Source: Ruminococcus sp. AF46-10NS (GTDB lineage Bacteria > Bacillota > Clostridia > Lachnospirales > Lachnospiraceae). From it: a DNA stretch of 64,000 nt. Shown here in pieces: positions 23,836-61,129 of the stretch. The notes beneath the pieces were generated by a model. It worked only from the letters and a program-made list of their open reading frames with translations, was not told the origin of the DNA and made no database searches. The stretch lies in NCBI RefSeq assembly GCF_003474435.1, contig NZ_QRNF01000016.1, forward strand, positions 1-64,000. The letters run 5' to 3'. The position numbers and the translations under genes were made by a program. Position 1 is the first letter of the stretch. Every line of letters starts with the position of its first letter.

Positions 23836-23910
23836 AACGGCTATGGGTTTGACAGCGGAGAAAGATCCGCCTGACTGACGATGTGGGAATTGAACTGCGT
23901 AGGATTATTT

Positions 23911-24072
23911 TAACCGAATCAAGTAAGTCCCCTGCTTCAATTGCGAGGAGCAATAAGCAGTGGGTGGGACTTACTTGTATCAGGAGGGGTACAAGGCCCC
24001 TCCTGATAAACTGCGGAGCAGTTATTCGGTTATGAGCAAGTAGCGAAAGCGGATTGCGAATATCCGATTGAC
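23911..24072. repeat. 162-bp structured dispersed element, copy A (cloverleaf plus tail)
   Basis: An outer stem TAACCGAAT (23911-23919) with ATTCGGTTA (24024-24032) encloses three hairpins with almost no linkers: a 12-bp stem 23920-23931 with 23966-23977 capped by CTGCTT/AAGCAG and ATTGC/GCAAT pairs; a 12-bp stem 23978-23989 with 23997-24008; and AACTGC/GCAGTT (24009-24014 with 24018-24023). A 40-nt tail follows, with CGGAT/ATCCG around TGCGAAT. Copy B at 60968-61129 has the same length and about 97% identity, and its changes keep the pairing. It lies between spoVG and cbiK, whose genes converge on it. Confidence 0.85.
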
Positions 24073-24086
24073 TATCAATTACAAAA

Positions 24087-24884
24087 TTAAACCGATGCGT
24101 TCATGGCATCCTGTACATGATCAACAAGGATCTGTCTGATCTCCGGGTATTCTCCAAGCCCCTTTAATACTGGTGTAACCTCATATCCACCGGAAGAAAG
24201 AAGATTCATCCAGGAATCCGGATCATCCCCTGCAAGGTCGTTCTGTGCGTGATCTCCGGCTACGATCATAAACGGAGCAAGCATGATCTTCTTTGGCTTA
24301 AAAGTATCAGCAGCACGGAGAAGAGAGTCCAGTGCAGGATAAGCTTCCACAGTGCCAAGGAAAATATTCTTGTGTCCCATATCCTGGAAGCGATAAGCCA
24401 GTGCTGCATAGACAGTGTTGGAATAATGTTCTGTTCCATGTCCCATAAGAACAAGGGCTGTCATTGAATCCATATCCTGAAATTCATCTGCTACAGCTTT
24501 CACAACAGCCTGGTTGTCATTCTCTGTGGTAAGAAGCGGGTTTCCAAAAACAATGCTTGCAAACTGATCTTTAAAAGAAAGGGCATCTGCCTTCATCTGA
24601 TCATTCTCAATACCGTTGATCACATGGGTGGGCTGTACTACAACATCTGTGATCCCATCGCGGAGCATCTGCTCCATGGCTTCTTTTACAGTATTTATAA
24701 TGATCCCGTCGCGTTTTTTGAGCTTGGAAATGATCATCTTGCTTGTCCACGCACGGTAGGTTGGACAGGCCGGGAATGCATCGGCAATATCGCGCTCAAT
24801 AGCATCAATGGTAACTTTACGCGTATTCTCGTAGCTTGTGCCGAAGCTGACTACAAGGATCGCTTTTTTTGAAGCTGAATTCAT
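24087..24884 (-). CDS. cbiK: Sirohydrochlorin cobaltochelatase CbiK
   Basis: A 265-residue class II chelatase that inserts cobalt into sirohydrochlorin in the anaerobic B12 route. Features are VVSFGTSYENTR at the N-terminus, QPTHVINGIE, VLMGHGTEHYSN (a metal-binding His) and APFMIVAGDHAQNDL (a second His), all as in CbiK. The start is the ATG at 24884 (MNSASKK), preceded by GGAGG; a longer open frame upstream passes that site. It is divergent from the tetrapyrrole operon, which supplies its substrate, and has an exact consensus promoter. No signal peptide is present, so it is the cytoplasmic form. Confidence 0.92.
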   Translation of the reverse strand: MNSASKKAILVVSFGTSYENTRKVTIDAIERDIADAFPACPTYRAWTSKMIISKLKKRDGIIINTVKEAMEQMLRDGITDVVVQPTHVINGIENDQMKADALSFKDQFASIVFGNPLLTTENDNQAVVKAVADEFQDMDSMTALVLMGHGTEHYSNTVYAALAYRFQDMGHKNIFLGTVEAYPALDSLLRAADTFKPKKIMLAPFMIVAGDHAQNDLAGDDPDSWMNLLSSGGYEVTPVLKGLGEYPEIRQILVDHVQDAMNASV

Positions 24885-49954: not shown

Positions 49955-50241
49955 CAACTTAAGAAACAAACCGATGAGAAAGAGAAGTAGATATTCAGGG
50001 AACTTCACAGAGAGCAGGGATGGTGGAAACCTGCAGGGAACCGGATGTTGAATGGACTTTCGAGGGCGGCCCGAACTATTTATCTGTACAGTAGGAGCCG
50101 ACGGGATATCCGAACCCGTTATCAATGAGGAGTGTATGTTAGTACACCGGAGAGTGGGCGATTCGTCAATTTGAGTGGTACCGCGATAATAAAGAACTTT
50201 TATTACCGTCTCAAGCATAATATAAGCTTGAGACGGTTTTT
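49955..50241 (+). promoter_or_regulatory. T-box riboswitch, tryptophan specifier
   Basis: The leader contains Stem I landmarks (AGAGAGCAGGGATGGTGGAA near 50008-50027), the specifier region GTTGAATGGAC with codon TGG (Trp) at 50053-50055, a GGAGCCGACGGG linker and stem, the universally conserved TGGTACCGCG at 50176-50185, and an intrinsic terminator (50206-50216 with 50226-50236, then T5). Uncharged tRNA-Trp would pair with the T-box and allow readthrough into the transporter. The rest of the gap to 50382 is unstructured. Confidence 0.92.
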
Positions 50242-59461: not shown

Positions 59462-59489
59462 TCCTTCCAACTTATGCGATGCAGAAAAG

Positions 59490-59527
59490 AGTCTGGTATG
59501 CTTAATGAAGTATACCGGCTTTTTTTT
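59490..59527 (+). terminator. Terminator of yceD-rpmF
   Basis: A stem of about 13 bp (59490-59503 with 59508-59520, one bulge and two G-T pairs) with an AATG loop runs into an eight-T stretch. Confidence 0.8.
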
Positions 59528-59587
59528 ATACTAAAAAAAATGAATCGTGAAAACTATATAACGAGGGGAAAAGGAAATAAAAATTAT

Positions 59588-60970
59588 ATGAAAACAAATT
59601 TACAGAAAGAAAATACCGCCAAAGTAAATCAGATCACAGAAGGCGTGATCTGGAAGCAGCTTCTGCTGTTTTTCTTTCCGATCCTGTTCGGAACATTATT
59701 CCAGCAGGTTTATAATACCGCCGATACTGTAGTAGTAGGGCGGTTTGTGGGAAAAGAAGCACTGGCAGCAGTAGGTGGATCTTCCAGCATGATCGTGAAT
59801 CTGATCGTTGGATTCTTCGTGGGTCTGTGTTCCGGAGCAGCTGTAGTGATCTCTCAGTATTATGGGGCAAAAGACAGCAAAAATCTAAAAAAGGCACTTC
59901 ACACTTCCATGATCTTCTGTCTGGCAGCCAGTGTGGTCGTAGGCATGGCAGGTTTTATCCTGGCAGAGCCGATCCTGCACCTTATGAAAACACCGGCAGA
60001 AGTAATCCCGGATTCTGTGCTGTATCTCCACATCTATTTTGCAGGAACTTTTTTTAACCTGGTATACAATATGGTATCCAGTATCTTACGTTCAGTAGGA
60101 GACTCAAAAAGACCCCTGTATGTGCTGATCATCACCTGCCTTCTTAATATTCTTCTGGATGTAATCTTTGTGGTGAGCTTCCATATGGGTGTTTTGGGTG
60201 TTGCACTTGCAACAGTAAGCTGCCAGGCAGTCAGTGCCATTCTTGTTACCTGGTTTCTGATGCGGGCGAACGATATTTACCGCCTAAAGTTCCATGAGAT
60301 CCGGTTTGATGCACATTCCCTGGCAGCAGTTCTCCGCATCGGACTTCCGGCAGGACTGGAATCTGTAATGTACAACATTGCCAATCTGACCATTCAGATA
60401 TTTGTCAATGAGCTTGGAACAGATACCGTGGCAGCCTGGGGAACCCTGGGAAAAATTGATGCTGTATTCTGGATGGTGTGCAATGCTTTTGCCATCTCAA
60501 TTACCACCTTTGTGGGCCAGAATTACGGTGCCGGAAAATACCGCCGTATGCAAAAAAGCGTCCGTGTCTGTATGATAATGGCTTACATTACCGCCTTTAT
60601 TGTAAGCGGAGGTATTTTTCTGTTTGCAGAGCCTATTTACCGTCTGTTTACCACAGATCAGGGAGTTGTGGACATCGGTGTTCATATGATCCGTTTCCTG
60701 ATTCCGTCCTACGCCCTTTATGTAGTGATCGGTATTCTCTCCGGTGCACTCAGGGGAGCAGGAAAAGTGCTGATACCCATGATCCTGACCTGCGGAGGAG
60801 TGTGCCTGATCCGTATTATCTGGCTGTTTGTTTTTGTTACCAGGCATCCGGGAATCAATAATATCATGCTCAGTTATCCGGTATCCTGGGTGATCACGGC
60901 AGTTCTGTTTGTGATCTACTATTTCAGCCATTTTCCGGGAATACGTAAAGAAAAACAAAAAATTATTTAA
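59588..60970 (+). CDS. MATE-family efflux transporter
   Basis: A 460-residue, 12-helix MATE protein starting VIWKQLLLFFFPILFGTLFQQVYNTADTVVVGRFVGKEALAAVGG, a pattern of the DinF/NorM-like Clostridia clade. The second half has LRIGLPAGLESVMYNIANLTIQ and FVGQNYGAGKYRRMQKSV. ATG 59588 (MKTNLQKENT) is preferred to upstream starts at 59474 and 59540, which fall in or next to the rpmF terminator; AAAAGGA lies 12 bases before it. Its TAA stop is the first three bases of repeat copy B. Confidence 0.88.
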   Translation: MKTNLQKENTAKVNQITEGVIWKQLLLFFFPILFGTLFQQVYNTADTVVVGRFVGKEALAAVGGSSSMIVNLIVGFFVGLCSGAAVVISQYYGAKDSKNLKKALHTSMIFCLAASVVVGMAGFILAEPILHLMKTPAEVIPDSVLYLHIYFAGTFFNLVYNMVSSILRSVGDSKRPLYVLIITCLLNILLDVIFVVSFHMGVLGVALATVSCQAVSAILVTWFLMRANDIYRLKFHEIRFDAHSLAAVLRIGLPAGLESVMYNIANLTIQIFVNELGTDTVAAWGTLGKIDAVFWMVCNAFAISITTFVGQNYGAGKYRRMQKSVRVCMIMAYITAFIVSGGIFLFAEPIYRLFTTDQGVVDIGVHMIRFLIPSYALYVVIGILSGALRGAGKVLIPMILTCGGVCLIRIIWLFVFVTRHPGINNIMLSYPVSWVITAVLFVIYYFSHFPGIRKEKQKII

Positions 60971-61129
60971 CCGAATCAAGTAAGTCCCCTGCTTCAATTG
61001 CGAGGAACAATAAGCAGTGGGTGGGACTTACTTGTATCAGGAGGGGTATAAGCCCCTCCCTGATAAACTGCGGAGCAGTTATTCGGTTATGAGCAAGTAG
61101 CGAAAGCGGATTGCGAATATCCGATTGAC
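60968..61129. repeat. 162-bp structured dispersed element, copy B (cloverleaf plus tail)
   Basis: It is the same length as copy A at 23911-24072, with about five substitutions. The outer TAACCGAAT/ATTCGGTTA stem, the CAAGTAAGTCCC/GGGACTTACTTG hairpin, the AACTGC/GCAGTT hairpin and the CGGAT/ATCCG tail are unchanged. In the middle hairpin TATCAGGAGGGG faces CCCCTCCCTGATA, with one bulged C balanced by a loop one base shorter. The element begins exactly at the MATE stop codon and ends 117 bases before the ABC-F start. Confidence 0.85.

Follow-up and report, generated by a model that had tools for sequence, protein, structure and literature searches.

The two copies of a structured repeat in the window (the whole stretch of 64,000 nucleotides analysed) are members of a large family of mobile DNA elements that carry no genes and occur in Blautia and other Lachnospirales. 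The element is probably a non-autonomous transposon of the IS200/IS605 type, PATE-like, which moves by single-strand transposition with a Y1 (HUH) transposase supplied in trans. A fixed target, insertion without duplication, potential pairing between the target and an internal triplet, and a bias with respect to the replication fork are marks of IS200/IS605 elements, and the repeat is therefore best called a PATE-like non-autonomous element. A preliminary description, made from the letters of the window, had viewed it as a MITE- or REP-like mobile or RNA element that could not be assigned to a known family. Its mobile, non-coding and dispersed nature is borne out by the many copies, the empty sites, and the covariation, but the element need not stay unassigned, because it inserts by the rules of the non-autonomous IS200/IS605-type elements (PATEs), to which REP elements are related in mechanism. 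In the proposed mechanism, replication would expose the top strand, the lagging-strand template, as a single strand that could fold into the cloverleaf and the tail hairpin. The transposase would make two cuts, one after the target on the 5' side (TTTAA or TTGAA) and one at the 3' end (TTGAC or TTTAC), and would join the released strand to another site, 3' of an identical pentanucleotide, with no duplication of the target. Base pairing with a triplet of the element, TTA or TTC, at the base of the tail hairpin would pick the target.

Comparison of the two window copies revealed 5 mismatches over 162 ungapped positions (96.9% identity), and in both the fold proposed earlier was recovered, with three hairpins inside a 9-bp outer stem followed by a 40-nt tail. 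The 162-bp repeat is real, but the mobile unit is 159 bp, the preceding TTTAA being target DNA. The element proper spans 23914–24072 (copy 1) and 60971–61129 (copy 2), and all features given here lie on the forward strand. Copy 1 runs from CCGAAT to TTGAC, with boundaries taken from the empty sites of sibling copies and from the alignment; junction searches found no exact empty site of copy 1 itself. Its target TTTAA (23909–23913) lies outside the element and is single in four clean empty sites of the same lineage. Based on the fold and covariation, copy 1 contains the outer stem 5' strand (23911–23919), whose first three bases, TAA, are target DNA; hairpin 1, the left-end hairpin, with a bulge on its 3' side (23920–23977); hairpin 2 (23978–24008); and hairpin 3 (24009–24023). 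The outer stem 3' strand ATTCGGTTA (24024–24032), delimited by covariation, carries the TTA that is the presumed guide for the target TAA and is matched by TTC/GAA in a second lineage. The tail, or right end (24033–24072), consists of GAG[4 bp]GUAGC..GCGGA[4 bp]GAA with an alternative hairpin around GCGGAT/ATCCG and the 3' end TTGAC. In copy 2, the target TTTAA (60966–60970) is single in an empty site (L091) of G001, the nearest genome, on contig C33, and the stop codon of the ORF at 59474–60970 falls within it. The predicted fold places hairpin 1 at 60977–61034, hairpin 2 with a bulged C at 61035–61065, hairpin 3 at 61066–61080, the outer stem 3' strand at 61081–61089, and the tail at 61090–61129. 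The earlier statement that the differences between the copies keep pairing holds only in part: in the predicted fold of copy 2 the extra C is bulged out of hairpin 2, and the tip of hairpin 1 loses its closing C-G pair through a G-to-A change. The folding energies are -76.7 kcal/mol for copy 1 and -68.0 kcal/mol for copy 2. The element ends CCGAAT and TTGAC are mutually non-complementary, so the element is without terminal inverted repeats and its hairpins are subterminal; 159 bp leave too little room for a transposase gene. The flanks of copy 1 (window 23909–24110) are hybrid, with the left flank corresponding to the occupied site L032 in G001 and the right flank to an empty TTTAA site (L092) elsewhere in the same genome, which suggests recombination between copies or a short-read misjoin.

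To assess the fold, 39 of 44 full-length copies were aligned; L013, L034, L042, and the second copy each of L058 and L068 were excluded because of damage, degeneration or near-identity to another copy. In this alignment 95.8% of the cells pair, compared with at most 44.1% when the partner is slid. Two-sided changes were observed in 23 of the 56 pairs, against a mean of 7.8 in shuffled alignments, and none of 500 shuffles reached 23, so that the covariation supports the cloverleaf. Stem-breaking changes are present in single copies, including copy 2, but the stems covary across the family. In the 39-copy alignment, two-sided changes are absent from the tail helices and from the alternative terminal hairpin GCGGAT/ATCCGC. 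Among distant members inspected by eye, the 4-bp stem of the tail reads GCAA/TTGC, GGAA/TTCC, GTGC/GCAC, GTAC/GTAC, GTAT/ATAC, GCTC/GGGC or AACC/GGTT, and these varying stems, together with the members of the Rfam family RF01699, support the tail fold GAG[4 bp]GUAGC-loop-GCGGA[4 bp]GAA.

Comparison of sites with and without the element, one of the checks proposed in the preliminary description, located the boundaries and the target. TTTAA junctions were searched in two sets, 8 junctions in 21 genomes and 13 in 12 genomes, and clean empty sites were found at 4 of the 21: window copy 2 (in G001), L033 (in G005), L058a and L044. The first two were each found empty in one genome; L058a is clean in two of four matching stretches (G002 and G059), the two stretches in G023 being unclean; and L044 has a clean empty site in all six genomes, the occupied site itself now reading TTTGA. 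At all four loci the empty site holds a single TTTAA with the right flank directly after it. The other 17 junctions gave no clean empty site: at L034a, L058b, L053, L049, L055, L052 and L031 the match was imperfect, poorly aligned or occupied by another variant, and for the remainder no spanning match was found among those read. A near-identical copy, L034 (G001:C4), lies inside a reading frame that we take to be Spx/ArsC-like; this is compatible with the TTTAA rule, but the G002 homologue reads TTCCAA at that place. In L051, L054 and L055 another, degenerate unit lies directly after the tail, an arrangement that insertion of new copies at the TTTAA of older ones would produce. In the second lineage, whose copies start with CGCAG and have TTGAA on their left, two of six TTGAA junctions (L065 and L066) have clean empty sites, both in G005 and both with a single TTGAA; the other four have none, and L065 gave no clean alignment in G016. 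At L045 the left side agrees in G005 and G052 (TTAAA in G016), and in these genomes 16 letters are missing on the right side. Insertion 3' of a fixed pentanucleotide without target duplication was thus observed at six clean loci, four with TTTAA and two with TTGAA. These empty sites, together with the non-complementary ends, rule out a terminal-inverted-repeat MITE, and the MITE-like character suggested earlier was dropped. A terminator was also considered and rejected: some copies follow T-tracts, as judged by eye, and these are explained by the T-rich target.

Because L045, L065 and L066 are 65-bp forms, insertion most simply needs no full cloverleaf. At the foot of the tail, GGTTAT in the first lineage offers a TTA that can pair with the target TAA, and GTTCAT in the second offers a TTC that can pair with the target GAA. 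The two lineages seem to have changed the target together with the matching internal triplet. The target is not part of the element, and its match to the triplet therefore suggests that pairing selects the target, the triplet possibly acting as a guide. An automatic tally of targets and guides was noisy, with TTTAA and TTA together in 34 of 102 tails and many of the others misaligned, and was given no weight.

Analysis of the orientation of the copies indicated a strong strand bias. The origin was set from dnaA in four circular genomes with one main chromosome, the terminus was assumed to lie opposite, and 72 distinct places were listed (the lists are incomplete, and one place on a small G005 contig was left out). 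The element strand runs with the replication fork at 66 of the 72 listed copies and at 57 of 62 when one copy per 10 kb is counted; two of the six exceptions lie at most 2.1% from the assumed terminus. The direction of the upstream gene is a poorer predictor, judged from simple ORF calls with an upstream gene at 42 of 44 copies: the fork is followed by 23 of 23 copies with a co-directional upstream gene and by 16 of 19 with an opposite one. An element strand that runs with the fork is the lagging-strand template, the strand that IS608 and ISDra2 use according to the section of PMC6006769 concerned with them. An IS605 set in Halanaerobium is described in an excerpt of PMC7290912 as having no lagging-strand preference, with 10 of 22 on the leading strand, and such a bias is therefore not a fixed mark of the IS605 family.

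Mobility at the RNA level, in which a transcript would be inserted beside TTTAA by reverse splicing or primed reverse transcription in a group II intron-like or SINE-like manner, would likewise give no duplication, a fixed 5' motif and a lagging-strand bias. Such a route also fits the covariation of all cloverleaf stems, the conservation of a non-canonical tail motif common to a family that Rfam types as sRNA, and a constant 3' end with some copies 5'-truncated. G·T cells outnumber A·C cells by 90 to 30 when the two pairs richest in G·T are counted, but without these two pairs they come near balance (47 vs 30 cells, 24 vs 21 types), and the G·U excess was rejected as a sign of RNA constraint, being weak and hinging on two pairs. 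We regard RNA-level mobility as unlikely. Neither copy matches any Rfam family at the gathering score and thus no group II intron model, and a group II intron, with its catalytic core, was rejected for this and for the length of 159 bp. A T-box leader (RF00230, 100 bits) lies elsewhere in the window, at 49965–50216. Copies truncated at the 3' end also exist (most of 17 examined, which were picked for that); one 5'-truncated copy meets a TetR-like frame at an 11-nt stretch beyond which the remainder of that frame was not found, the situation that a deletion would leave; and the 65-bp form has clean insertions. The retrotransposon or SINE idea is weakened by the 3'-truncated copies and by this truncation, which resembles a microhomology deletion.

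To determine the distribution of the PATE-like element, a search for further copies was carried out, as had been suggested, and gave matches in 26 of 60 genomes of the host genus, so that the absence of further copies, named beforehand as a refuting result, did not arise; the copy numbers are lower bounds, since at most 14 candidates were scored in most genomes. The nearest genome, G001, holds 14 tails of the window type and 5 of other types (up to 3 mismatches). A 20-letter tail pattern was found in at least 120 stretches of named genomes, and the 80 of them checked by title all belong to Lachnospiraceae (Blautia, Eubacterium, Roseburia, Fusicatenibacter and others) or to less precisely named Clostridia or Bacillota. 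Among the 123 tails in 120 stretches, a TTTAAC start lies 10 to 166 letters upstream in 64, and is absent by that pattern in 42; the other 17 tails lie at contig ends. A covariance model built from the 39 copies matched in 35 of 295 genomes of the order, representing 19 of 129 genera. Seven of ten such loci were inspected by eye: six have a TTTAA start and one ATTAA, and all show the three hairpins followed by a similar tail, which at one locus contains an insertion. No match was found in 72,556 plasmid records, and 11 of 50,697 phage records match, all of them unannotated contigs from faecal samples; the exact tail pattern occurs in 1 IMG/VR contig. Among open-licence literature titles we found no description of gene-less elements of this kind in Blautia. 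Three internally deleted forms (L221, L222 and L217), of 40–46 bp without the target, appear to have been joined where the full element carries short direct repeats (CAAGTA, ATTGCGAA).

Minimal forms of 36–45 bp make up 20 of the 64 tails with a TTTAA start, in several genera, and have GTAG or GCAG near an 8-bp hairpin. This is what would favour a REP/RAYT-type origin, in which a domesticated TnpA_REP would have amplified the tail as a REP hairpin guided by GTAG. The portions of PMC6006769 on REP/RAYT describe hairpins outside genes that have a tetranucleotide 5' of their foot, which the element resembles, particularly in its minimal forms, but from which it differs in its fixed 5' target and large body. 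Precise insertion after a fixed far-5' target and a 159-bp multi-hairpin body are not REP-like, and the conserved core is the other tail conformer (GAG..GAA with varying 4-bp stems), inside which lies the GTAG or GCAG that many tails have near the 8-bp hairpin. Furthermore, tblastn with five IS-type TnpA queries, none of them RAYT, gave no match near the tails in 120 loci of named genomes. We therefore give this origin a low probability, slightly below that of RNA-level mobility.

The PATE-like reading calls for an enzyme in trans, and we searched for candidates. A Y1 transposase (E<1e-25) is present in 15 of 16 genomes with at least five element matches, in 3 of 10 with one to four, and in 3 of 34 with none; comparing the first and last groups gives a Fisher value of 5e-9, with kinship ignored throughout. 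Among 32 good assemblies the corresponding counts are 12 of 12, 1 of 5, and 0 of 15. G004 has five element matches and no Y1 match. An IS605-type family of the host genus consists of a TnpA with YHLI[LM]VVKYRR and a TnpB of about 371 aa, and TTTAA stands at the left end in all six pattern-found loci and in L157; the related copies L110, L159 and L160 have other left ends. This family thus shares with the element a TTTAA left target, in seven left ends, and a weak left-end likeness, but its right end is TGTCAC, not TTGAC. The likeness was reached by 1 of 500 shuffles for L016/L108 and by 4 of 500 for L087/L108; the best pairs stand at 1–6 of 500, and 16 of 30 pairs lie above 20 of 500, the sequences being hand-picked. 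In G001, which is rich in near-identical copies, there is one intact TnpA, and its left ends follow other letters (TTAG). The tail served as right end at no TnpA or TnpB locus read (30 of the listed TnpB matches were read), and an autonomous parent IS, sought at these loci and beside the tails in the 120 loci, was not found. In G052, a degenerate element (L138/L106) lies directly downstream of an IS200-like copy, after a T-tract. TnpB-like genes occur in 16 of 20 host genomes, and TTTAA sits, relative to the element, at the position of a TnpB TAM. Both observations would agree with the cloverleaf and tail being an omega RNA of the TnpB/IscB type that moves without the nuclease and uses its 3' flank as guide. 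The stretches downstream of TnpB genes, compared by eye and by blastn, read unlike the element, and neither copy has an Rfam match at the gathering score; we consider such a solo guide RNA very improbable, the least probable of the explanations weighed here.

Among the known systems closest to the element are the haloarchaeal, IS605-type PATEs. As far as the part of PMC3119063 on them goes, they likewise lack terminal inverted repeats, cause no duplication of the target, have palindromes close to their ends, and are too short for a transposase. The element differs in its conserved multi-hairpin cloverleaf, in that its parent IS was not found, and in a target/triplet pair that differs between lineages. 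A passage of PMC2993954 reports that IS605 of Helicobacter pylori inserts beside TTTAA or TTTAAA and mini-IS605 beside matching sites. Mini-IS605, as portrayed there, is short and gene-less with its left end at TTTAA, similar to the element; it consists of end fragments of the known IS605, whereas the right end of the element is common to no IS found here.

The tail side of the element matched RF01699 (Clostridiales-1) at 24.6 bits (E 0.002) in a relaxed search, the gathering score being 48. Membership in RF01699 was rejected, because the score lies below the gathering score and the motif is in the tail, not in hairpin 2. The RF01699 family resembles the element in its length of about 165 nt, its four-way junction of three hairpins, its multicopy nature, and its GAG[4 bp]GUAGC..GCGGA[4 bp]GAA motif, but it carries the motif inside hairpin 2 and has different ends. 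It was matched in 25 of 146 genomes of the order. By eye, 14 copies with flanks in G170 (L225–L238) include seven with a duplicated flank, of 6 letters in six copies (ATTTTA in three, CTTACT, ACTTTA and ATAAGT) and of 11 letters in one, and seven in which it is imperfect or lacking; their ends are imperfect terminal inverted repeats. In G162 (L241–L244) and G204, at most TA is repeated in the flanks, also by eye. RF01699 was given as probably an RNA in the pertinent entry of Weinberg et al. 2010 (PMC2864571). The family itself looks like a mobile element, and no description of it as mobile DNA was found among open-licence literature titles.

One broader proposal, which we offer tentatively as a possibility somewhat doubtful at present, is that a family of cloverleaf single-strand transposons exists in Lachnospirales, distinct from the described IS. 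In these transposons the element's triplet at the base of the tail hairpin would dictate the target by pairing, and lineages would retarget by changing that triplet. The tail motif is common to Clostridiales-1, apparently a duplication-making MITE, and a recognising factor, possibly an undescribed transposase, would hence be shared. With this analysis, a structured repeat of common gut bacteria that had no assignment is placed with the single-strand transposons. Its two states, TTTAA with TTA and TTGAA with TTC, provide a natural test of the guide rule described for IS608. Such repeats can confuse assembly as well as the annotation of terminators or sRNAs, and the comparison with RF01699 is a warning that a family typed as sRNA in Rfam may consist of mobile DNA.
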